From Acetofilamentum sp. (lineage in GTDB: Bacteria; Bacteroidota; Bacteroidia; Bacteroidales; DYOH01): a stretch of DNA of 38,125 nt. Position numbers and translations under genes: made by a program. Where the stretch lies: NCBI GenBank assembly GCA_020720625.1, contig DYOH01000032.1, positions 1 through 38,125 on the forward strand, in the 5' to 3' direction. Within the stretch, counting starts at the first letter, position 1; each line of letters starts with the position of its first letter. Positions 7,141 through 18,866 of this stretch are shown piece by piece. The notes under the pieces are model-generated. The model did not search any database. It was not told the origin of the DNA and was given only the letters and a program-made list of their open reading frames with translations.

Positions 7141-8151
7141 ATGGCCACAAATAAGCAGGCAATTATAAGATATCATGCTTTAGATCAATGTTTTTCAAAC
7201 TCAGGAAGAAAATATTTCATCGATGATTTACTTGAATCCTGCAATAATGCAATTTACACCTATACTGGTACAAAAAATGGAGTGAAACGCAGACAAATTT
7301 TTGAAGACATTAAATTTATGGAAAGTGATCAAGGCTGGTCAATCCCCCTGGAAAAAATTCGCGAAGGAAAAAGAGTATATTATAAATATTCCAATACAAA
7401 GTTTAGTATTAAACAATCATCCATTAATGAATCTGAAGCCAACCAAATAAAAGAAACATTGACAATTCTAAGTAGATTTAAAGGAATGCCGCAGTTTAAT
7501 TGGATAGAAGAGCTTCTTATTCGATTGGAAACTACATTCAATTTAAAGCAACAACCAAAACCCATAATTGGATTTGAACAAAACGTTTATCTTAAAGGCT
7601 TAGAATTTTTTAATTATTTATTTAATGCCTTATTTTATAAAATAGTTTTAAATATTACTTACAAAAGCTACAGACAAAAAATATCTGTTGATATTGAACT
7701 ACATCCATATTTTTTAAAGCAATACAATAATAGGTGGTTTCTATTTGGATATAATGAAAAAGAAAATGCTATCTCTAATCTTGCGCTTGACCGAATTATT
7801 TCGATTAATGAAATAAACAAAAACTTTATAGAAAATCAAGATATTGATTTTGAAGAATACTTCGATGACATTATTGGAGTTACAGTTAAATCAAATCTTG
7901 AAAGACAAAAAATTCTTTTGCAAATTAGCAATCAACTTTGGCCATATATAGAAAGCAAGCCAATTCATGGCTCACAAAAAGTAAAACAAAAAAATGATGA
8001 ATCAATAATCATAGAATTAAACTTACAAATCAATTTCGAGTTTATCTCTCTGATTTTTTCTTACGGAAGCGAAATTAAAATAATAGCGCCGGAAAGCTTA
8101 AAAAATAAAATAATTGACAAGGCAGAAAAGTTACTTCAACAATATATTTAA
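7141..8151 (+). CDS. WYL-domain transcriptional regulator
   Basis: This 336-aa protein is probably a DNA-binding repressor or switch. Residues 1-80 look like a winged helix-turn-helix (YFIDDLLESCNNAIYTYTG ... VKRRQIFEDIKFM). A WYL domain follows, with the core RWFLFGYNEKENAISNLALDRI at about 198-219. Residues 250-336 fit the WCX C-terminal extension. WYL regulators of the CapW/BrxR kind sit at the edge of many phage-defence loci and sense a ligand, possibly nucleic acid. The retron downstream has its own promoter (8162-8189), so this gene may control it in trans. The ATG at 7141 lies 23 bp after the sensor gene. Confidence 0.85.
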   Translation: MATNKQAIIRYHALDQCFSNSGRKYFIDDLLESCNNAIYTYTGTKNGVKRRQIFEDIKFMESDQGWSIPLEKIREGKRVYYKYSNTKFSIKQSSINESEANQIKETLTILSRFKGMPQFNWIEELLIRLETTFNLKQQPKPIIGFEQNVYLKGLEFFNYLFNALFYKIVLNITYKSYRQKISVDIELHPYFLKQYNNRWFLFGYNEKENAISNLALDRIISINEINKNFIENQDIDFEEYFDDIIGVTVKSNLERQKILLQISNQLWPYIESKPIHGSQKVKQKNDESIIIELNLQINFEFISLIFSYGSEIKIIAPESLKNKIIDKAEKLLQQYI

Positions 8152-8161
8152 TTTATGCAGC

Positions 8162-8189
8162 TTGATTGCACAATAAAGATATATATTTG
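8162..8189 (+). promoter_or_regulatory. Promoter of the retron ncRNA-RT operon
   Basis: TATATTTG at 8182-8189 matches TAnnTTTG exactly. TTG at 8162-8164 lies 17 nt upstream, the same spacing as at the promoter at 203-234. The predicted start near 8194-8197 falls at the base of the a1 stem (8198), where a retron ncRNA should begin. No direct or inverted repeat for the WYL regulator was obvious here. Confidence 0.65.
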
Positions 8190-8190
8190 C

Positions 8191-8448
8191 CCAAGTTCTT
8201 TGAAATACTTGCCTAAAGATATTGAATCGTGCATGCTGGTCCTGATTTTTTCAGGACAATGATTGGCATGACTTCCCGACAATGTGCGGGATGAATGTCT
8301 CTGACAAATTGATAAAGCCGGCAATCTTGTAATATTATATTACATGTTATTGATTATTATTTATTGATTTGTTTATGATAATTTAAGTACAATTATAGTA
8401 TAGTATTGTTCATACTTATAGAGTATCACGCAAGTATTTTCAAAGTTC
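8191..8448 (+). ncRNA. Retron msr-msd non-coding RNA
   Basis: This interval between the WYL and RT genes has retron architecture. Arm a1 (CTTTGAAATACTTGC, 8198-8212) pairs with arm a2 (GCAAGTATTTTCAAAG, 8430-8445) over 15 bp with one bulged T (8440), enclosing everything between. Just after a1 comes CTAAAGATATTG; G8218 is a possible branching guanosine. The msr part holds a 7-bp hairpin GTCCTGA-TTTTT-TCAGGAC (8239-8257) extended by CATGC/GCATG (8232-8236/8266-8270). A TCCCG/CGGGA hairpin follows (8274-8278/8287-8291). The msd part is very A+T-rich and contains hairpins at 8328-8344 (TGTAATA/TATTACA), 8378-8396 and 8399-8420. The exact msr/msd boundary and template end cannot be fixed without folding or sequencing of the cDNA. 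The RT ATG lies 18 nt after a2. Confidence 0.8.
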
Positions 8449-8463
8449 ATTTTGCATAAAAAA

Positions 8464-9672
8464 ATGAAAATAGAGCAGCAACATATTGACCAAATACGAA
8501 AGCAATTTGCTTCAATGCAGAACAAAGAAGATTTGCTTGCTCTGCTGAATGAGACAAAAACGATTCTTTATGCAAAAAAGACAAAACCATTTGAACTGAA
8601 AAGTCTCACCTACTATGCCAACCCGGAATTTTCAGCAAACAGATATATAAAATTCGTAGTGAAGAAAAAATCGGGTGGTGAACGATCCATACACGCACCG
8701 GTTAAAGGCTTAAAATCAATATTACGTGCGCTTAACTTTGTGCTCCAGTGCATATATGAGCCGCATAATGCAGCTACAGGCTTTGTTATAAATAAATCCA
8801 TTGTTGACAATGCCAAAGTTCACGTTGGAAATCACTATGTTTACAACTTAGATTTAAAAGATTTTTTTCACTCATTTAATCGCAACAGAATAAAAATGAG
8901 CTTTATGCATGAGCCATTTAATTTACATAGCGAAAGAGAACCATTGGCTTTTATGCTTGCAAGTTTATGCACCCACCCATTGGAATTAAATGGTCAAATT
9001 CTACATGTACTTCCTCAAGGAAGTCCTACTTCGCCGACCATTACAAATATTTTATGCAAAAAGCTGGATAAAAGATTAACCGGACTTGCCAATCGTTTTG
9101 GGGCAAAATATACCCGATACGCTGATGATTTAAGCTTTTCATCGCCACACAATATCTATAAAAATGAAGATTTTAATAAAGAATTAGAGCGCATTATAGC
9201 AGAAGACCACATAATAAATATCCGTAATAAAAAAGTTGAAATCGGCCTGCAATTGCATATCAACAGAAAAAAAACCCGTTTACAAAAATCTGTTTACCGT
9301 CAGGAAGTAACCGGATTAATTGTAAATAATAAAGTAAATGTAAACCAGCGATATTTAAAGCAAATACGCATGTGGATTTACTATTGGGAAAAATACGGCT
9401 ACGAAAAAGCACAGCAAATTTTTATTAAAGATTATTTGGCCGATAAAGGACATTTGAAAAAAAGAAACGCTAACTTAGGGAATGTTTTAGATGGTAAACT
9501 AGAGTTCTTGAAAATGGTAAAAGGGGAAGATGACTCTACATATAAAACACTAAAAAATAGGTATGATAAAATAATTGGCGCAATAAGCCCGATTAAAATT
9601 GTATTAGATATTTGGGAAAACGAAGGCATTGAAAAAGCAATGGAAGTCTTTACCAGATTAAAAAATAGTTAA
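8464..9672 (+). CDS. Retron-type reverse transcriptase
   Basis: This 402-aa RT would copy the upstream msd into multicopy single-stranded DNA. Motifs in order are KKKSGGERSIHAP (motif 1), NAKVH (116-120, the retron NAxxH motif), YNLDLKDFFHS (motif 3), LPQGSPTSP (QGSP 185-188) and YTRYADDLSFS (catalytic YADD 219-222). Motif 6 is followed by EVTGLIVN (VTG 282-284), a motif that marks retron RTs. There is no group II intron maturase or endonuclease part, and no diversity-generating repeat pair was seen. The ATG at 8464 is preferred over an in-frame TTG at 8452 because it leaves the a2 arm clear. The stop is 2 nt before the next ATG, which indicates a tightly coupled operon with the three accessory genes. 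Confidence 0.93.
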   Translation: MKIEQQHIDQIRKQFASMQNKEDLLALLNETKTILYAKKTKPFELKSLTYYANPEFSANRYIKFVVKKKSGGERSIHAPVKGLKSILRALNFVLQCIYEPHNAATGFVINKSIVDNAKVHVGNHYVYNLDLKDFFHSFNRNRIKMSFMHEPFNLHSEREPLAFMLASLCTHPLELNGQILHVLPQGSPTSPTITNILCKKLDKRLTGLANRFGAKYTRYADDLSFSSPHNIYKNEDFNKELERIIAEDHIINIRNKKVEIGLQLHINRKKTRLQKSVYRQEVTGLIVNNKVNVNQRYLKQIRMWIYYWEKYGYEKAQQIFIKDYLADKGHLKKRNANLGNVLDGKLEFLKMVKGEDDSTYKTLKNRYDKIIGAISPIKIVLDIWENEGIEKAMEVFTRLKNS

Positions 9673-9674
9673 TC

Positions 9675-10820
9675 ATGGCAGAAAAACAACAAATTAAAAA
9701 TATACAAGAAAAAAGTAAATTTGTTACTGATATTCTTGATTATAGCATAAAGAAAAAAGTTGATGATAAAATAAGAGTTAGGTTGATTAATCTTATCAGT
9801 AAAGAAATTGAAAAAACAGGAATAGTTGAAGCGGAGATAATTGAAAGGATTTCTAGAATTGAAAAAATGTTGACGAGGGATGATAAATTCCAAAATAAAG
9901 AAAAAAGTTTTTCAGGAAAATATCATAAACCTAAAGAAACATATTTATTACTTGATTTTTTCAGCAGTAATGAAGGAGGAATAAAGAATCTTACTCATGC
10001 ATTTAATCTTGACTCTATTGAATACGAAACATTTATAAATCAATGTAAAAGCGAATTTGAGCAAGGAATAAATAAATATCCCAATGTACCCGATGCATTA
10101 ATCAAAAGAATAGAAAATTTTGCATTTTCGAAAGAACCAAGCTGGTATATAAGGAAAGGTAAAGAAAAAATTGTACCAAAACTTGGATGGTCAGAACCAA
10201 GTTTCGTCGAATGGTATAAAAGTGATAAAAAACATCCTTGGTACAATGATAAGTATAAAAATGAAATGATTATACCATTCAGGGAATCAATCAGGGTTAG
10301 ATCCGATTCTGAATACTTATATAAATTAATTAGTGAAACCTTCGAATTGGTTTTTGGCACAGCATCAATTTGCCAAATAATCTTTGATGGAAAAAATTTA
10401 AAGCATGCAGATTTCTATACTGATGTTGATAATTTGGGACAGGCAATTTTTGAAATTTTTTCGACTATAAAAGATATGGCTATAAAAAACTTCTGTAACA
10501 AAATAGAAGTAGGATTTAATACCGAAGGAGACTTTAAATTTTTTTTTATCACACATATAGACTCTTTATCGACAAAAAGGTCTGATGATAAAGGCTTTTT
10601 GGGAGGTAATTTAAGAACTATTAGAAGTAAGCTTTATGGACTTTGTAATTATGAAATTAATGCAAAATTTCCAGATGGATATTTTAGAAAAATTATCTTA
10701 TCTGATAACGATAACGATAAAGATGAAGTTTTATCAAGCCGTGGTAATTGGATGGGAAAAAGCTATCCTATTGAAGAAAATGATGTTAATGGATTCACAC
10801 ACATTTTAAAATTCTACTAA
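9675..10820 (+). CDS. Retron accessory protein with degenerate histidine-kinase-like ATPase domain
   Basis: This 381-aa soluble protein has no clear signal peptide or membrane segment. Residues about 235-345 resemble a GHKL/HATPase_c fold. NLGQAIFEIFSTIKDM (from residue 254) sits at the N-box position but lacks the catalytic asparagine pair. FFFITHIDS sits at the G1 position. GGNLRTIRSKLYGLC (GG 310-311) with the following KFPDGYFRKIILS closely matches the G2 box and final strands of histidine kinases (GGLxxVRxxLxxL...GxGTxFxIxLP). The N-terminal 230 residues are unrecognised; no H-box phospho-acceptor is evident. It is probably a non-catalytic or weakly nucleotide-binding sensor. It sits 2 nt after the RT gene and 2 nt before the next gene, and a receiver protein lies two genes on. 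The fold call is by eye. Confidence 0.55.
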   Translation: MAEKQQIKNIQEKSKFVTDILDYSIKKKVDDKIRVRLINLISKEIEKTGIVEAEIIERISRIEKMLTRDDKFQNKEKSFSGKYHKPKETYLLLDFFSSNEGGIKNLTHAFNLDSIEYETFINQCKSEFEQGINKYPNVPDALIKRIENFAFSKEPSWYIRKGKEKIVPKLGWSEPSFVEWYKSDKKHPWYNDKYKNEMIIPFRESIRVRSDSEYLYKLISETFELVFGTASICQIIFDGKNLKHADFYTDVDNLGQAIFEIFSTIKDMAIKNFCNKIEVGFNTEGDFKFFFITHIDSLSTKRSDDKGFLGGNLRTIRSKLYGLCNYEINAKFPDGYFRKIILSDNDNDKDEVLSSRGNWMGKSYPIEENDVNGFTHILKFY

Positions 10821-10822
10821 TA

Positions 10823-11455
10823 ATGATTTTAATACTTGACGATACAGAATATCTCAGAAAGAGGTTTGATATAGAGTTTCTTTTTGATGATAAATACAAA
10901 CAAGTTTGTCAATTAATTGACAAGAAGCCATATAGTAGAGAGATAATGCAATTAGCTCAGAACCTAACTAACTTTATAATGGTTTGTCATCATAGAAGTA
11001 TAAAAATTCTGAAAGAGGAAGGAAATAATTCAAGTGATGAAGATATTTCGAAAATGAAAGAGAATTTTATTCGTAAAATTGATGCAACAAAAATAGCACG
11101 AATAGAGTTTGGCAGGGATATGCATACAAACTTTTCAGCTAAAACTATTGATAAGAATCTGTTTTATGCTAATCTTAAATACTTTATCGATTTCTATATT
11201 TTAAATAATATGCTTGAATTGAAAATTTTGTATTATGGTGAAAATTATAAGGAAATAGAAAAGATGACTTTAATTGATAAAGTAATTGATGAAATTAGAA
11301 GTTTAGATATTTCAAAGTTTAAAGACAATAGATTGATTCTTGATGGTTTAAAGTCTCTTTTCCCAAGCACGAACCCATTTGATATAATTGAAAATTGGCG
11401 CAAGAAGGAATTTAGTAAAAAAGAAATTATTCACATTTTTAATGAAAACCTATAA
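10823..11455 (+). CDS. Small retron accessory protein, possible pseudo-receiver
   Basis: I do not recognise a family in this 210-aa protein. It opens with MILILDDTEYLRKRF, which looks like the first strand and acidic pair of a response-regulator receiver domain. A second strand NFIMVCHHRSIKIL has histidines where the phospho-acceptor aspartate would be. The rest is mostly helical and charged (KYFIDFYILNNMLELKILYYG; KEFSKKEIIHIFNENL). It is locked into the operon by 2-nt gaps on both sides, so it very probably works with the ATPase-like and REC-HEPN proteins. A pseudo-receiver, an adaptor or an antitoxin-like inhibitor are all possible. No catalytic motif is visible. Confidence 0.45.
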   Translation: MILILDDTEYLRKRFDIEFLFDDKYKQVCQLIDKKPYSREIMQLAQNLTNFIMVCHHRSIKILKEEGNNSSDEDISKMKENFIRKIDATKIARIEFGRDMHTNFSAKTIDKNLFYANLKYFIDFYILNNMLELKILYYGENYKEIEKMTLIDKVIDEIRSLDISKFKDNRLILDGLKSLFPSTNPFDIIENWRKKEFSKKEIIHIFNENL

Positions 11456-11457
11456 CC

Positions 11458-13200
11458 ATGAACAAAACGTATATTATTTCAGATTATACTACAAAATTAA
11501 AGGGATTGATTAGTGATTTAAGAATTCCTGAAACAAATATTATTTCTAGAGAGGATTTCACTGATGAACGAGAATGTCATGATTGGACCGCAAAAGTATT
11601 AAAGAATAATGATATAGAAAAAATAATAATTCCGATTTCTATACCAACAGATGCACCGGTGATAAATAGTGACGGGTTACTTATTGCGCTGCATATCCGG
11701 TTAAACTTTGAACTTGATATCTCAAAAAGATTAATTCCAATAATATTCTTATCAAATTTCCCCGTTTCGAAAATAATTGAAATAAACAGTTTTGACGCAG
11801 ACAATAATCCCCAAAACTTAATATTTACAAAGGGAATTTATTTTTCTTCATTTGATAAAAATGATATTAAAACAACAATAGAAGGGACAAAACATTGTAG
11901 GCAGGAAGAATATCAAAAAAGCATTTTGAATAAATTAAACATCTTTCGAAAAGAAACCATAGGGGGACATGATATTGCGAATGCATGGGGATGTTTTAAA
12001 CTAGCTCAGGTAGTTGGTGTTAGTGATAAAGTATTTGAACTTGACTCCATATCAAAACATTTAAAGCAGCTTTACGCGAAATATTTAATCTGTAACAATG
12101 AATCCTTTAAAACAGAAAAAAGAATAGACCTTAAGCCCATAAAATGTGGTAGAAAGAAAATCCTTTTTATCGATGATAAATCGGATGAAGGTTGGAGCGA
12201 TTTAATGAAAAATATTTTTAAAGGAGCAGGAGATAACTTTGTTTTTGTTGATAGTGCAAAATATAAAACTTCTGATGAGCCGAAATTATTTAAAGATTTT
12301 GAAGGATTTCTGAATGAATGCCGCTCTTATATTGGCAAAGTCTTAGATTTAATAATTATTGACCTGAGATTGAATCCGGAAAAAGAAGATATTGACAATG
12401 AAATGATTCCCCCAACCGAATTTTCTGGTTATAAATTGATAGATGAATTTTTAAATGAAAATGAAGGATATCAGATAATCGTTTCAACAGCATCGAATAA
12501 AATTTGGAATATAAATGCTGCTCTGCAAAGAGGTGCATCATCATATTATGTAAAGGAATCACCTGAATTTAATTACTCTATTAGCGAAACAAACAAGCAT
12601 TATGAGAATTTCAAAACTGATGTAAAGAAATGCTTTGAAAGAAGTTATTTGTTTGAAATATATAAGGAAAACCAAAAACTATTCTCAATACTTAATAAGC
12701 ATAGCAATCCTTCATTTGCTAATGAAATAAAAAATCAATTATCAATTGCCTATTCCCTATTAAAAGAAGCGAAGAATGATATACAATTCGCTTATGCGTA
12801 TATTTCATTATACTTGATTATTGAGATTATTAATAATGAGTATTATACAAAAACGAATGATGATAAATGGGAAATTTTGGATGTTGGTAATTTATTAAAT
12901 TGGGAGCACGATAAAAATACAAGTACTTATTCTGAAACTGGTGTTGAATTTATTGGAAATAAGCCACCTGAATGGAAAAAATTTGCCGGTTTATATTATC
13001 AGAAATGGAAAATGAATGACCATAATTTCATACGACAACTTTATTTTCTAATAACGAAACGAAATGGATTTGTGCATGGTGATAAAGCACTCTTAAATAA
13101 ACGTGATGATAGCGGAAACTATTTAAATCACGATATATACAGTAATAAAGGCTATGAAAATCTATTCAACCATATAAAACAGATAATTAGATATTTGTAA
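11458..13200 (+). CDS. Receiver-HEPN fusion, candidate retron effector RNase
   Basis: This 580-aa protein appears to have three parts. Residues 1-135 resemble a degenerate receiver (TYIISDY; GLLIALHIRL; IPIIFLSNFP; NLIFTKGIYF) without a usable phospho-acceptor. Residues about 234-370 form a complete receiver: KKILFIDD (D239, D240), LIIIDLRL (D302), VSTAS (T344) and YYVKES (K366). The T-to-K spacing of 22 is normal; the D-to-T spacing of 42 is longer than usual. Residues about 400-580 are helical and contain ITKRNGFVHGD. Its R535-N536-x3-H540 matches the catalytic Rx4-6H motif of HEPN RNases, with the favoured polar residue after R. I infer a ribonuclease toxin gated by phosphorylation or by partner binding at the receiver. 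The gene is 2 nt downstream of the previous one. The ATG opens the first strand directly. Confidence 0.65.
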   Translation: MNKTYIISDYTTKLKGLISDLRIPETNIISREDFTDERECHDWTAKVLKNNDIEKIIIPISIPTDAPVINSDGLLIALHIRLNFELDISKRLIPIIFLSNFPVSKIIEINSFDADNNPQNLIFTKGIYFSSFDKNDIKTTIEGTKHCRQEEYQKSILNKLNIFRKETIGGHDIANAWGCFKLAQVVGVSDKVFELDSISKHLKQLYAKYLICNNESFKTEKRIDLKPIKCGRKKILFIDDKSDEGWSDLMKNIFKGAGDNFVFVDSAKYKTSDEPKLFKDFEGFLNECRSYIGKVLDLIIIDLRLNPEKEDIDNEMIPPTEFSGYKLIDEFLNENEGYQIIVSTASNKIWNINAALQRGASSYYVKESPEFNYSISETNKHYENFKTDVKKCFERSYLFEIYKENQKLFSILNKHSNPSFANEIKNQLSIAYSLLKEAKNDIQFAYAYISLYLIIEIINNEYYTKTNDDKWEILDVGNLLNWEHDKNTSTYSETGVEFIGNKPPEWKKFAGLYYQKWKMNDHNFIRQLYFLITKRNGFVHGDKALLNKRDDSGNYLNHDIYSNKGYENLFNHIKQIIRYL

Positions 13201-13251
13201 TGCACCACCACTGCACACATACAATACAATTTTGCATAAAACGATGAAGTT

Positions 13252-15447
13252 ATGAGCATATTTGACCATTTTAAGCATATCACTCTAAGCAACGACCAAT
13301 CCAATGCTCTGGAAATGATACAAAATTTCCTTTCGGGCGATTTACAGGTTTTTATTCTTAAAGGATATGCCGGAAGTGGAAAAACTACCTTGCTTAAAGG
13401 AATAGTAGACTATTTAAAAGCCACAGAAATAAACTATCAATTAATGGCTCCTACCGGAAGAGCAGCAAAAGTTATTAGTCAAAAAACGGGATTTGAGGCA
13501 ACAACAATTCATAAAGGAATATATAGTTTTGATGAATTAAAAGAGTCTGAAATTTACGAAAATGAAGAGTCCGAAGTAAGCTTTAAGTATTTTTATTCTA
13601 TTCGCAAAAATTCTTTTATAAATAACCCAATTCTTATTATTGATGAAGCTTCGATGGTTTCAGACATTGAAAGCCAGGCTGAATTTTTTGGTTTTGGTAG
13701 TGGCTTCTTGTTAAAAGATTTACTAGAATATGCAAAAATAAATTTGCCCGATTCAAACTCAAAATTGCTTTTTATCGGAGATCCTGCGCAGCTGCCTCCT
13801 ATTGGGATGAACTTTTCTCCTGCGTTAGATTCAAAATATTTAACTGAAAAGTACAATTTAAAAACTATAGAAACAGAAATTAGAGAAGTAAAACGACAAA
13901 CTACTGATAGTGGAATACTAAAATCCGCTACAAAAATTCGTCAAAGTTTAAGTGCCGGATTTTTTAATCACTTTAACCTATCGGATTACAGCCAAGACAT
14001 TAATAATATAAACTTTGAGCAATTTCTTGATAGTTATATTTCGAAAAATGAGCAAAAAATTGTTATCACATATAAAAACGAAACAGCCAATGACTTAAAC
14101 CAATTAATCAGAAAAAGGAAATATGGTGCAGTTGTGATTGTTCAAAAAGGCGATATAATGCTCATAAACGCAAATAATTACCAACTAGGCGTATTTAATG
14201 GAGAATTTGGTGTTATTTCAAATGTGGATGAAAATACTGTCCAAAGGGAAGTAAGGTATTACAAAAAAAACAAAGACTTAGTCAAAATAGAGCTTATTTG
14301 GCGAAATGTTGAGCTTTTCATCCCTGATGAAAACGGAAACACAAAAACTATCAAAGCCTATATGCTTGAAAACTTGCTGAATGAAAGTGAAAATAAATTA
14401 TACGACCTTCATTTAGCACTTTTCATTGATTTTAAAAATCGCTTTCCAAGAAAAAACAGTCATGAATATAAAAATGAACTAAAAAAAGACCCATTTTTAA
14501 ATTGCTTGTCTTTAAAATATGGTTACGCTGTTACCTGCCACAAAGCCCAAGGTGGTGAATGGGATACCAGTTATATTTTTTGGGATAAAGGAACCGACAC
14601 AAACTTTGATTTCTATCATTCGGCTCATAGTAATGCAAGAAAAACAAATGCTGAATTTTATCGTTGGGCTTACACGGCAATTACCAGAGCAACAAATAAA
14701 ATATATTGCATTAACCCACCCAAGTTTACTTCCTTTTCAACGATTTCTTTTATTGATATTGAGCTACAAGATTCTATAAAGCAAATTTCTGGTAAGGATT
14801 TAAGTATTAAAGAAATAACGCTAGATGAACAAAATCTGCAACTCCTAAAAACGTATGGTTTAGAAAATATGCCAATTGTTCTGCAAAATCATTTCTTACA
14901 AATGTATTTTATTACTAAAGACAACGGCATAGAAACTATCAAATGGGAAAAAATAAATCATGAAATAAGATATTATTTTAAGAAGGATAATGAAAAAGTA
15001 GCACTTAAATTTTGGATAAATGCAAATTTGCAATTCAACGCGAATTTTCAACAAATAGCAAAAGAGACAAATTCACTTTCATTATTTAATCACATTACCG
15101 GATTGAACAAAGAAGCTCATACGTTGATTATTAAAAGAAATGACCACAAAATAGACATCCCAGAAATAGAACTTGATGAAAAAATGAATGAAAATGCACC
15201 TTATTTAGGCTCATTATTTGACTCAATGAAATTGCAGTTAGTAAATACAGGAATTAGTGTATTTACCATTGAGCATTTCAATTTCAAAGAACGATATACA
15301 TTTATTAGAGATAATGAAAAGGCTGTAATAGATTTTACATATAATAATGCAGGATTTTTTGGATACACTACTCCGGTAGGAAAGTTATGCAATAGTCAGA
15401 ACCTTCTAAGTGATATAAAACAATTTATTTCTAAACTAAAAGAATAA
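13252..15447 (+). CDS. RecD-like SF1 DNA helicase (UvrD/RecD C-terminal type)
   Basis: This 731-aa protein is an ATP-dependent helicase of the RecD/Pif1 group. Visible motifs are the Q-like LSNDQSNALEMIQ, Walker A GYAGSGKTT (38-46), motif Ia APTGRAAKV, Walker B IIDEAS (DEAS 131-134) and motif III GDPAQLPPIG (176-185). Motif V follows as VTCHKAQGGEWD (427-438) and motif VI as YTAITRAT (474-481). About 230 residues after the helicase core are unrecognised and may bind partners. The gene starts 51 nt after REC-HEPN and is separated by only 3 nt from the TPR/cold-shock gene, so those two are a pair. An internal promoter before it is possible (ACAATTTTG near 13224-13238) but not convincing. Confidence 0.85.
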   Translation: MSIFDHFKHITLSNDQSNALEMIQNFLSGDLQVFILKGYAGSGKTTLLKGIVDYLKATEINYQLMAPTGRAAKVISQKTGFEATTIHKGIYSFDELKESEIYENEESEVSFKYFYSIRKNSFINNPILIIDEASMVSDIESQAEFFGFGSGFLLKDLLEYAKINLPDSNSKLLFIGDPAQLPPIGMNFSPALDSKYLTEKYNLKTIETEIREVKRQTTDSGILKSATKIRQSLSAGFFNHFNLSDYSQDINNINFEQFLDSYISKNEQKIVITYKNETANDLNQLIRKRKYGAVVIVQKGDIMLINANNYQLGVFNGEFGVISNVDENTVQREVRYYKKNKDLVKIELIWRNVELFIPDENGNTKTIKAYMLENLLNESENKLYDLHLALFIDFKNRFPRKNSHEYKNELKKDPFLNCLSLKYGYAVTCHKAQGGEWDTSYIFWDKGTDTNFDFYHSAHSNARKTNAEFYRWAYTAITRATNKIYCINPPKFTSFSTISFIDIELQDSIKQISGKDLSIKEITLDEQNLQLLKTYGLENMPIVLQNHFLQMYFITKDNGIETIKWEKINHEIRYYFKKDNEKVALKFWINANLQFNANFQQIAKETNSLSLFNHITGLNKEAHTLIIKRNDHKIDIPEIELDEKMNENAPYLGSLFDSMKLQLVNTGISVFTIEHFNFKERYTFIRDNEKAVIDFTYNNAGFFGYTTPVGKLCNSQNLLSDIKQFISKLKE

Positions 15448-17949: not shown

Positions 17950-17977
17950 ATAGCGAAGGCAATTTAGTCTTCGCTAT
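17950..17977. terminator. Hairpin between convergent genes
   Basis: A perfect 9-bp inverted repeat ATAGCGAAG (17950-17958) / CTTCGCTAT (17969-17977) surrounds a 10-nt loop holding the stop codon of the minus-strand gene. Neither side has a real T-run, so this may be a weak terminator or only an mRNA 3' stabiliser. Confidence 0.4.
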
Positions 17978-18866
17978 CGATAGTTCGATTTACCAATTTT
18001 TTAATCCGCACCTGATTACCTTTTCCGAAATACTCAATCTCGTCGAATAAGAATTTACAGATAAAAATACCGCGACCGTTCAGATCGAAAAGGCGTTCCT
18101 GTTCGATATCCATTTGCAAAGATTTCCAGTCGAAACCGACCCCTTCGTCTTCGATAATCCAGGTACACATATTTCTGGTCATTTCAAACTGCACCCTCAC
18201 TTTTCGAGCAGCCATTTTCGAATTTGCCAGCCTATCTTCGTAAAGTTGTTCAAGTTTTCCGGCTTTTAAAGCTTCCGATTTCTCCTGAAAACTAATTTCG
18301 AGATTGCCGTGTTCAATAGCGTTTGTAAGTAACTCCACCAAACCTAGTTCAATGCTAATTTTATCGTCGCTGGAAAACAAATTTCCGGTTTCGTTAATCA
18401 GATAGTCAACTACTTTGGGCACCATTTCGGTATGTGTAGGAAACTCAATAATAAACTCACGGTGGAGCAAATTACCCGGCACCCTGGCCACAATAGCCCT
18501 TCGATTTTTAATGATGGCATCGTATTTCTGAAGCAATTCTATAAGATCGCTTTGGCGCACAGGTTTTTTAATATAATTATTGGCACCTAAATGAAAAGCC
18601 TTTACTGCATAATCTTCAGTACTAAAGGCTGTTATCATAATAAAGATGGAATTTGATTTTTTGCCCCTTACGGCTTCCAAAAGCTCAAGTCCATCCATGA
18701 TGGGCATTTGAATATCACATAAAACTAAATCCGGTTTAAATTCCGAGAAAAACTCGAGTCCTTCCCGTCCATTTTCTGCAGCTCTATATTCATGTCCTTC
18801 TATTTCGATGGCATTTTTCAAATATTCTCTCGAAGCTAAATCATCTTCAACTATGAGTATTTTCAT
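17964..18866 (-). CDS. Receiver domain fused to anti-sigma-type ATPase (RsbW/SpoIIAB-like)
   Basis: This 300-aa cytosolic signalling protein has a complete receiver at residues 1-120: D8, D9, D51 (CDIQMP), T79 and K101-P. After a linker comes a GHKL ATPase (about 140-295) of the serine-kinase/anti-sigma type. Its motifs are the N-box ELLTNAIEHGN (N182), the G1 box IIEDEGVGFD (D240) and the G2 box NGRGIFI. There is no H-box, so it is not a histidine kinase. It probably acts as a phosphorylation-controlled switch towards a sigma factor, an anti-anti-sigma protein or another partner not encoded here. A TATCTTTG promoter box lies upstream (18894-18901, minus strand). The M23 gene lies upstream on the same strand, 68 nt away. 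Confidence 0.85.
   Translation of the reverse strand: MKILIVEDDLASREYLKNAIEIEGHEYRAAENGREGLEFFSEFKPDLVLCDIQMPIMDGLELLEAVRGKKSNSIFIMITAFSTEDYAVKAFHLGANNYIKKPVRQSDLIELLQKYDAIIKNRRAIVARVPGNLLHREFIIEFPTHTEMVPKVVDYLINETGNLFSSDDKISIELGLVELLTNAIEHGNLEISFQEKSEALKAGKLEQLYEDRLANSKMAARKVRVQFEMTRNMCTWIIEDEGVGFDWKSLQMDIEQERLFDLNGRGIFICKFLFDEIEYFGKGNQVRIKKLVNRTIDSED

Follow-up and report, generated by a model that had tools for sequence, protein, structure and literature searches.

In the type IX retron-Kva2, a HEPN ribonuclease (RNase) is held silent in a complex of reverse transcriptase (RT) and multicopy single-stranded DNA (msDNA) and is released when a phage protein binds the msDNA, resulting in loss of transfer RNA (tRNA) and growth arrest, as set out in a 2026 preprint (PMC13405049). 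Defence by signalling parts is represented by Detocs, a defensive two-component system described as a three-gene family (PMC11249213). Here we describe a locus with likenesses to both in Acetofilamentum sp. (Bacteroidota; Bacteroidales; DYOH01; assembly GCA_020720625.1), found in a stretch of 38,125 nt of contig DYOH01000032.1, hereafter the window. A cassette on the forward strand (8188–13200) comprises a retron RNA followed by genes for an RT, a kinase-like HisKin-conflict protein, a pseudo-receiver and an iREC-receiver-HEPN protein. It probably represents a retron defence system in which a two-component scaffold made up mostly of pseudo-enzymes would gate a HEPN RNase. The four open reading frames (ORFs; 8452–9672, 9675–10820, 10823–11455 and 11458–13200) are each separated by 2 nt, and PADLOC names only the RT among them. 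The features of the cassette are as follows.

8188..8450, + strand: retron non-coding RNA (msr-msd); covariance model match of 155.2 bits (as a training member), covarying helices, fold z
8464..9672, + strand: retron RT, 402 aa from ATG; RVT_1, PADLOC retron profiles, NAKVH/YADD/VTG
9675..10820, + strand: HisKin-conflict protein; PF22561, AlphaFold2 (AF2) model, structure match of the catalytic and ATP-binding (CA) domain
10823..11455, + strand: small pseudo-receiver-like protein, 210 aa; alignment of 34, weak hhalign match
11458..13200, + strand: iREC-receiver-HEPN protein, 580 aa; PF22563, receiver structure match, AF2, R-x4-6-H
12643..13197, + strand: putative HEPN-type region; motif, with scattered HEPN family matches of homologues

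The RT carries the retron motifs NAKVH, YADD and VTG, and RVT_1 (E 3e-15) is its sole convincing Pfam match. Across 84 loci, NAxxH is present in 78, YxDD (as the pattern [YF]xDD) in 84 and VTG in 79. Translation likely starts at the ATG at 8464 rather than at the TTG at 8452 of the mechanical ORF, because homologues begin MKIEQQHID. The best PADLOC profiles are RT-Protease_XI (324.1 bits) and RT-TIR_XII (305 bits), with RT_IX at 134.7 bits. When seven reference RTs were added to a tree, six of them clustered, but St85 sits on a branch of 8.8 and the program gives a warning about the meeting of long branches; given this problem, placement of the RT among retron types is based on profiles only.

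As in retrons, a structured RNA bounded by a1/a2 inverted repeats lies 5′ of the RT. It is 263 bases long (8188–8450), with a1 at about 8198–8214, a2 at 8428–8445, an msr stem at 8231–8238/8264–8271, a second hairpin at 8274–8276/8288–8290 and the msd probably within 8302–8427. The fold of 8192–8452 beats all 200 shuffles (z −4.41). An inverted-repeat test on single loci was noisy, with 60 of 82 loci scoring above their best shuffle (12 letter shuffles each) but the window falling short of it (30 vs 32), and covariation was therefore tested in an alignment. This alignment spans a1 to a2 at 22 loci (21 distinct rows) picked where an inverted repeat had already been seen, which favours pairing; in it the a1/a2 helix shows two-sided changes at 8/8 pairs, and 95.8% of helix cells are paired. 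The covariation score of the whole structure is 0.645, compared with a shuffled mean of 0.264 (0/500 as high) and at most 0.171 in slid controls, the structure being somewhat favoured by its derivation from the same alignment. Trained on the 22 loci and searched over 91 sources (1.42 Mb; E <= 0.001), a covariance model matched 65 of them, i.e., the 22 training loci and 43 of the 69 others, among which L107 and L109 are apparently repeats of L062 and L066. A script check covered 59 of the 65 matches: the ends of 58 fall no more than 180 bp from the start of the RT ORF, and one (L010) lies 635 bp away. An Rfam search of 7900–13400 gave no credible match. Motifs, fold and covarying a1/a2 helix bear out the retron RNA and RT claimed in a preliminary description of this DNA made from its letters; that description also began the element at 8162, and its a1/a2 flanks hold but its start does not, a1 lying later, at about 8198.

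The three genes behind the RT are strongly linked to it. Genome contigs scanned with four RTs as queries yielded 221 relatives, of which the best 80 were kept, and forward counts refer to those. The HisKin, pseudo-receiver and receiver-HEPN genes follow the RT in this order in 43 of the 80 loci (module loci), the other two being present at every locus that bears HisKin. RT and HisKin form a single fused protein in 18 of the 43, the gap between them is at most 10 nt in 19 of the remaining 25, and 6 loci have the pseudo-receiver joined to effector sequence. None of the other 37 loci has a receiver-HEPN gene; 34 carry a small stand-alone HEPN-like gene, which occurs in 0/43 module loci, bringing to 77 of 80 the loci with either arrangement. 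The three with neither are L022 (whose contig stops 85 bp past the RT), L047 and L042, where a 1224-aa fusion (8986–12660) joins the RT to ~800 residues without a Pfam name. Two Chryseobacterium plasmids have the full four-gene set. L059, an identical copy of L044, is within the 80-locus counts and is left out of the gap, flank and motif counts (79 scan loci).

The linkage also holds when searched from the other side. Above-cutoff matches to PF22561, the HisKin family, occur in 5 of 395 Bacteroidia genomes and in 6 of 395 from Flavobacteriales (with the sample centre counted in each total), and an RT adjoins the gene in all 11; all four parts were recognised in 10, the exception being G941, whose divergent locus is masked in part and where the small gene went unrecognised. 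G000 and G730 are sample centres and not independent, and without them the result is 9/9; forward and reverse counts overlap by three (L054 in G730, and L062 and L066, apparently the same as G1039 and G1079). A third sample (198 genomes) matched only in its own centre, G731 (L032), which has the full set. The iREC family PF22563 gave five strong matches in 395 genomes, all inside these cassettes. The expectation that the three genes travel with the RT is thus supported in both directions, the opposite of homologues usually occurring without a retron RT.

Some candidates were rejected. One marginal and one sub-cutoff PF22563 match (G708, G466) have no cassette genes nearby and look by eye like a hybrid kinase and a fragment, and a sub-cutoff PF22561 match in G774, also with no cassette gene around it, looks like a topoisomerase-type protein. 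As a single-protein query, the window HisKin found 2 matches in 395 genomes of the phylum, including the window's own genome, and none among plasmids, where a query with a Chryseobacterium protein then recovered just the two plasmids already known. Viral contigs scanned with HisKin contained no relative, and an RT scan of them found one locus, L088, with a stand-alone HEPN-like gene. A planctomycete (Phycisphaerales) membership of L032 was rejected, and the locus is counted as Bacteroidota because genome G737 was drawn both for its phylum and for the Flavobacteriales sample. The RT of L009, titled archaeon, falls among Bacteroidota rows in the tree. The combination of genes recurs across one bacterial phylum, Bacteroidota.

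The HisKin protein (PF22561, E 9.5e-53) consists of a helical N-terminal part and a degenerate GHKL/CA domain at residues ~205–381. In its AF2 model (predicted local distance difference test (pLDDT) 83.4) the domain has a CA fold, matching 6lgq (Z 12.4, root-mean-square deviation (rmsd) 2.4, 134 aligned) and 8dwz (Z 12.4, rmsd 2.6, 124 aligned), with VanS and other kinases among the matches. At the G1-box position, in a column assigned by eye, Asp is found in 2 of 23 homologues and His in the window, and DxGxG occurs in 0/23 printed HisKin strings. Recognisable nucleotide-binding residues of kinases appear to have been lost, and ATP binding is doubtful. H108 is invariant (23/23) and sits outside the model helices rather than in a helix like those of dimerization and histidine phosphotransfer (DHp) domains. 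The Pfam description notes the domain in conflict contexts and names no system, so its curators had already seen the domain. At L078 a second HisKin-like gene (12621–13742) lies after the receiver-HEPN gene.

The small protein seems to be pseudo-receiver-like and to lack the phospho-accepting Asp. Its N-terminal acidic pair is retained (D/E at position 6 in 34/34, D7 in 32/34), and His57 is invariant (34/34) at the presumed phospho-Asp site, as placed by the alignment and a weak profile match. That match, made by hhalign with the receiver encoded by the following gene, has probability 60.7, E 8e-5 and 48 columns. Pfam receiver families match none of the 34 members (E <= 0.01), and Pfam finds nothing meaningful on the 210-aa gene of the window.

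The effector comprises an inactive receiver (iREC, ~1–130), a helical linker, a receiver (231–399) and a putative HEPN-type region (396–580). Pfam recognises iREC PF22563 (E 9.8e-13) and, below cutoff, Response_reg (E 0.0064) in the window, and among the homologues PF22563 in 24/34 and Response_reg in 32/34. The receiver in the AF2 model (pLDDT 88.7) matches 2qr3 (Z 12.9, rmsd 2.2, 119 aligned); the top Foldseek matches are PleD, which has tandem receivers, and VIA rows cover residues 1–398 at large rmsd. The residues expected of a receiver are conserved in 34/34 homologues (D239, D240, D302 and K366 invariant, T344 as T/S), and H171 and N175, in the linker helix following iREC, are invariant as well (34/34). 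Further downstream, R535 and H540, singled out like D302 in the preliminary description, are invariant in the 34 aligned homologues, with an R-x4-6-H motif of the HEPN type throughout (x4 in 18, x5 in 9, x6 in 7). The surrounding region is modelled as mostly helical with high confidence. Single members of 27 homologues match HEPN_RiboL-PSP (E 2e-5), Csm6 HEPN (E 7.8e-4), HEPN_Apea (0.029) and Cas_Csm6_HEPN (0.094), and the window region itself matches no listed Pfam family. The putative HEPN identity is based on this motif, the helical model and the scattered single-member matches to four HEPN families. The degenerate histidine-kinase-type ATPase, the possible pseudo-receiver and the complete receiver joined to a HEPN-like region of the preliminary description have thus all found support, that for HEPN being at motif level; on structure, the receiver and CA folds are recovered, and the HEPN region yields only a helical model.

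The 34 loci with a stand-alone gene share the RT clade and the RNA with the module loci, and in them one small HEPN-like gene (RN..HR) usually lies directly behind the RT:

L011, 3050–4057: lone HEPN-like gene
L013, 2514–3398: lone HEPN-like gene
L034, 10348–11229: lone HEPN-like gene
31 more among the 80 loci

R[ND]x2-3HR is present in all 33 lone HEPN-like ORFs of more than 200 aa (viral L088 included, identical copy L059 dropped). Seven of these proteins had no meaningful match in PADLOC 2023, and hhalign of the module and lone HEPN alignments was weak (probability 9, E 0.0035, 44 columns), which does not support common descent. At L044, an 869-aa protein (10193–12802) with a sub-cutoff GHKL match lies between the RT and the lone HEPN gene and is possibly another gate. 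L044 and L059 are two 100% identical 17,995-base retron copies on one contig (NZ_QMDV01000006.1), of which one lies at the end of the contig, and a 63-bp repeat is present; they reflect a recent duplication, a mobile element or an assembly artefact. Outside the phylum, a cyanobacterial RT on a Geminocystis plasmid (L112, 2420–4382) shares 44% identity with that of L008, and the next gene encodes a 262-aa protein bearing an RNIASH motif, so that RT plus HEPN may reach beyond Bacteroidota; the RNA model has no match there.

The two arrangements have been exchanged repeatedly. On a quick IQ-TREE phylogeny of the RT with 83 rows (support from the Shimodaira–Hasegawa-like approximate likelihood ratio test (SH-aLRT) only; L006 and L059 left out), the lone-HEPN label requires at least 15 changes, 10 of them forced by branches with support >=95, compared with an average of 26.6 for shuffled labels, i.e., the label is clustered yet far from a single origin. 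The window RT is 65% identical to the RT of the lone-HEPN locus L011. Within the module, pairwise distances (from plain identities, which saturate at low identity; all pairs except HisKin–small protein) correlate between the small protein and receiver-HEPN (r 0.68, 34 loci) and between HisKin and receiver-HEPN (r 0.78, 16 loci), with 0/2000 permutations as high in either case. Because the module genes co-evolve with one another but barely with the RT, the three-gene module seems to be one unit, swapped as a block between RT lineages; L008, for example, is 75% identical to the window in its RT and 22% in its effector.

By analogy with the portrayal of type IX retron-Kva2 in the preprint noted above, we read the RT-msDNA complex as sensor and restraint and the HEPN RNase as toxin. 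For the complex, its trigger, the RNase activity and the outcome we posit the following. HisKin would be the adaptor tying the effector branch to RT-msDNA, as suggested by the 18 of 43 loci where it is fused with the RT, and the pseudo-receiver together with the iREC-receiver part of the effector would keep the HEPN domain inactive. A phage protein that attacks or binds the msDNA would remodel the scaffold and change the dimer state of the receiver; two HEPN domains could then form a composite RNase site and cut RNA, probably tRNA, whereupon the infected cell would stop growing. Such a gate made of kinase-like and receiver proteins is plausible. Since the kinase is degenerate but the receiver intact, two variants remain, a conformational gate and phosphoryl transfer from another donor, of which the conformational gate is preferred.

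Several observations weigh against this reading. The RNA model had no match at E <= 0.001 in 26 of the 69 non-training sources. Distances of the RT correlate weakly with those of receiver-HEPN (r 0.12, 39/2000 permutations as high), the small protein (r 0.10, 125/2000) and HisKin (r 0.20, 11/2000, 23 loci), and a specific module–RT interface is therefore not implied, a highly specific one being disfavoured. The HEPN fold is not independently confirmed, the fold-search list for the effector being taken up by the receiver; profile searches of the PDB with both HEPN alignments gave one chance-level match each, and the other 7 of the 11 families listed for the effector region are non-HEPN (E 0.011 or worse). 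Lone-HEPN genes weakly match 19 families, with HEPN_Apea in 2/33, HEPN_Swt1 in 1/33 and the lowest E for a non-HEPN DUF, and their HEPN name is a provisional one that rests almost wholly on the motif. Finally, intact receiver residues would be odd for a purely structural scaffold.

A rival reading is a working phosphorelay, in which a phosphoryl group would reach D302, perhaps via H171, H57 or H108, and switch the HEPN dimer on or off, with the retron as input to a Detocs-like pathway. The invariance of the receiver residues and of H171/N175, H57 and H108 speaks for such a relay. The G1 Asp kept in 2 of 23 homologues, the lack of DxGxG and the resulting doubt about ATP binding, together with the position of H108 outside a DHp-like helix, make it unlikely. 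As a tentative possibility, one that we hold to be less likely than not, the cassette could be a retron type not yet described, whose msDNA sensor would signal via a rebuilt His/Asp relay. This relay would consist of a pseudo-kinase attached to the RT, a pseudo-receiver with His in place of the phospho-Asp and an intact receiver switching a HEPN RNase, and in one RT clade it would be swapped as a whole for a lone HEPN gene and back.

The gated retron proposed here might also be part of a larger unit to which a WYL regulator and a TOTE helicase/S1 pair belong. These associated, non-core genes flank the cassette in the window:

7141..8151, + strand: WYL-WCX regulator; PF13280/PF25583
13252..17061, + strand: TOTE gene pair; RecD-like helicase with TBP-TOTE, and DUF7017 with two S1/CSD-TOTE; PADLOC PDC-M16A/B

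Counting loci with enough sequence, a WYL gene lies within 900 bp upstream of the RT in 24/39 module and 11/27 lone-HEPN loci, and a TOTE helicase lies downstream in 19/36 and 11/26, with both TOTE genes in 18 and 8, respectively. About half of the loci are without WYL or TOTE, and 20 kb of L007 contain no match to either, so we regard membership in the system as rather improbable. Also near the cassette is a signalling gene (17964–18866, − strand) in which Pfam recognises a receiver joined to a HATPase_c_2 domain.

The same flanking genes, along with the weak RT-module co-evolution and the repeated exchange, could be taken to mean that the three genes form a defence module of their own, whose place next to retrons in defence islands is incidental. 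An RT adjacent to PF22561 in 11/11 genomes, the fusion of RT and HisKin and the confinement of all five strong iREC matches to these cassettes make this quite improbable. That the RT acts without msDNA, as in defence-associated reverse transcriptase (DRT) systems, would fit the fact that no msDNA has been seen so far and is hardly credible given the covarying a1/a2 helix, the conserved RNA directly upstream and the best matches to retron profiles.

A retron gated in the manner favoured here links retrons to two-component signalling parts. The occurrence of the same RT clade and RNA with either a bare HEPN-like gene or a three-gene gate amounts to a natural experiment, and comparison of the two would show what the gate adds (a threshold, reversibility or a second input) and which roles the pseudo-kinase and pseudo-receiver play. 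The switching of pseudo-receivers is called a mystery in a recent review (PMC12632262). The locus also offers a likely home for two Pfam conflict families, PF22561 and PF22563, of which the window proteins are members and which both map here to a retron, whereas neither Pfam description names a system.

Detocs divides its roles among a kinase-like gene, a single-receiver gene and a receiver-effector gene, and a set of this kind is also found here. The cassette differs in its degenerate kinase, whose ATP site is not that of an active sensor kinase, in a small receiver seemingly without Asp, in the predicted HEPN-type effector and in the retron RT and RNA. Type IX combines RT, RNA and a HEPN RNase in Kva2, as this locus combines RT, RNA and a predicted HEPN protein; Kva2 includes a winged-helix protein, and its HEPN lacks the canonical motif (PMC13405049), whereas the motif here is canonical and accompanied by kinase-like and receiver genes. 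Neither Pfam nor PADLOC found a winged-helix match in the genes of 8464–13200. That type IX has a HEPN RNase, and that 77 of the 80 loci carry the module or a lone HEPN-like gene, overturns the HEPN part of the preliminary claim, which knew of no retron with receiver/GHKL parts and HEPN. Types XI (RT-protease) and XII (RT-TIR), in PADLOC's names, have the closest RT profiles, and Pfam recognises neither a protease nor a TIR domain on the window RT. The RT with a lone HEPN-like gene shares RT clade, RNA, similar surroundings and a HEPN-type motif with the window cassette, and differs in having no kinase-like or receiver genes. We found no description of a retron with a two-component-like gene set in the literature searched, a provisional result as key surveys were not covered. 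By its RT and RNA the system is a retron, by its defining partners it is not type IX, XI or XII, and its effector module is built from two-component parts.

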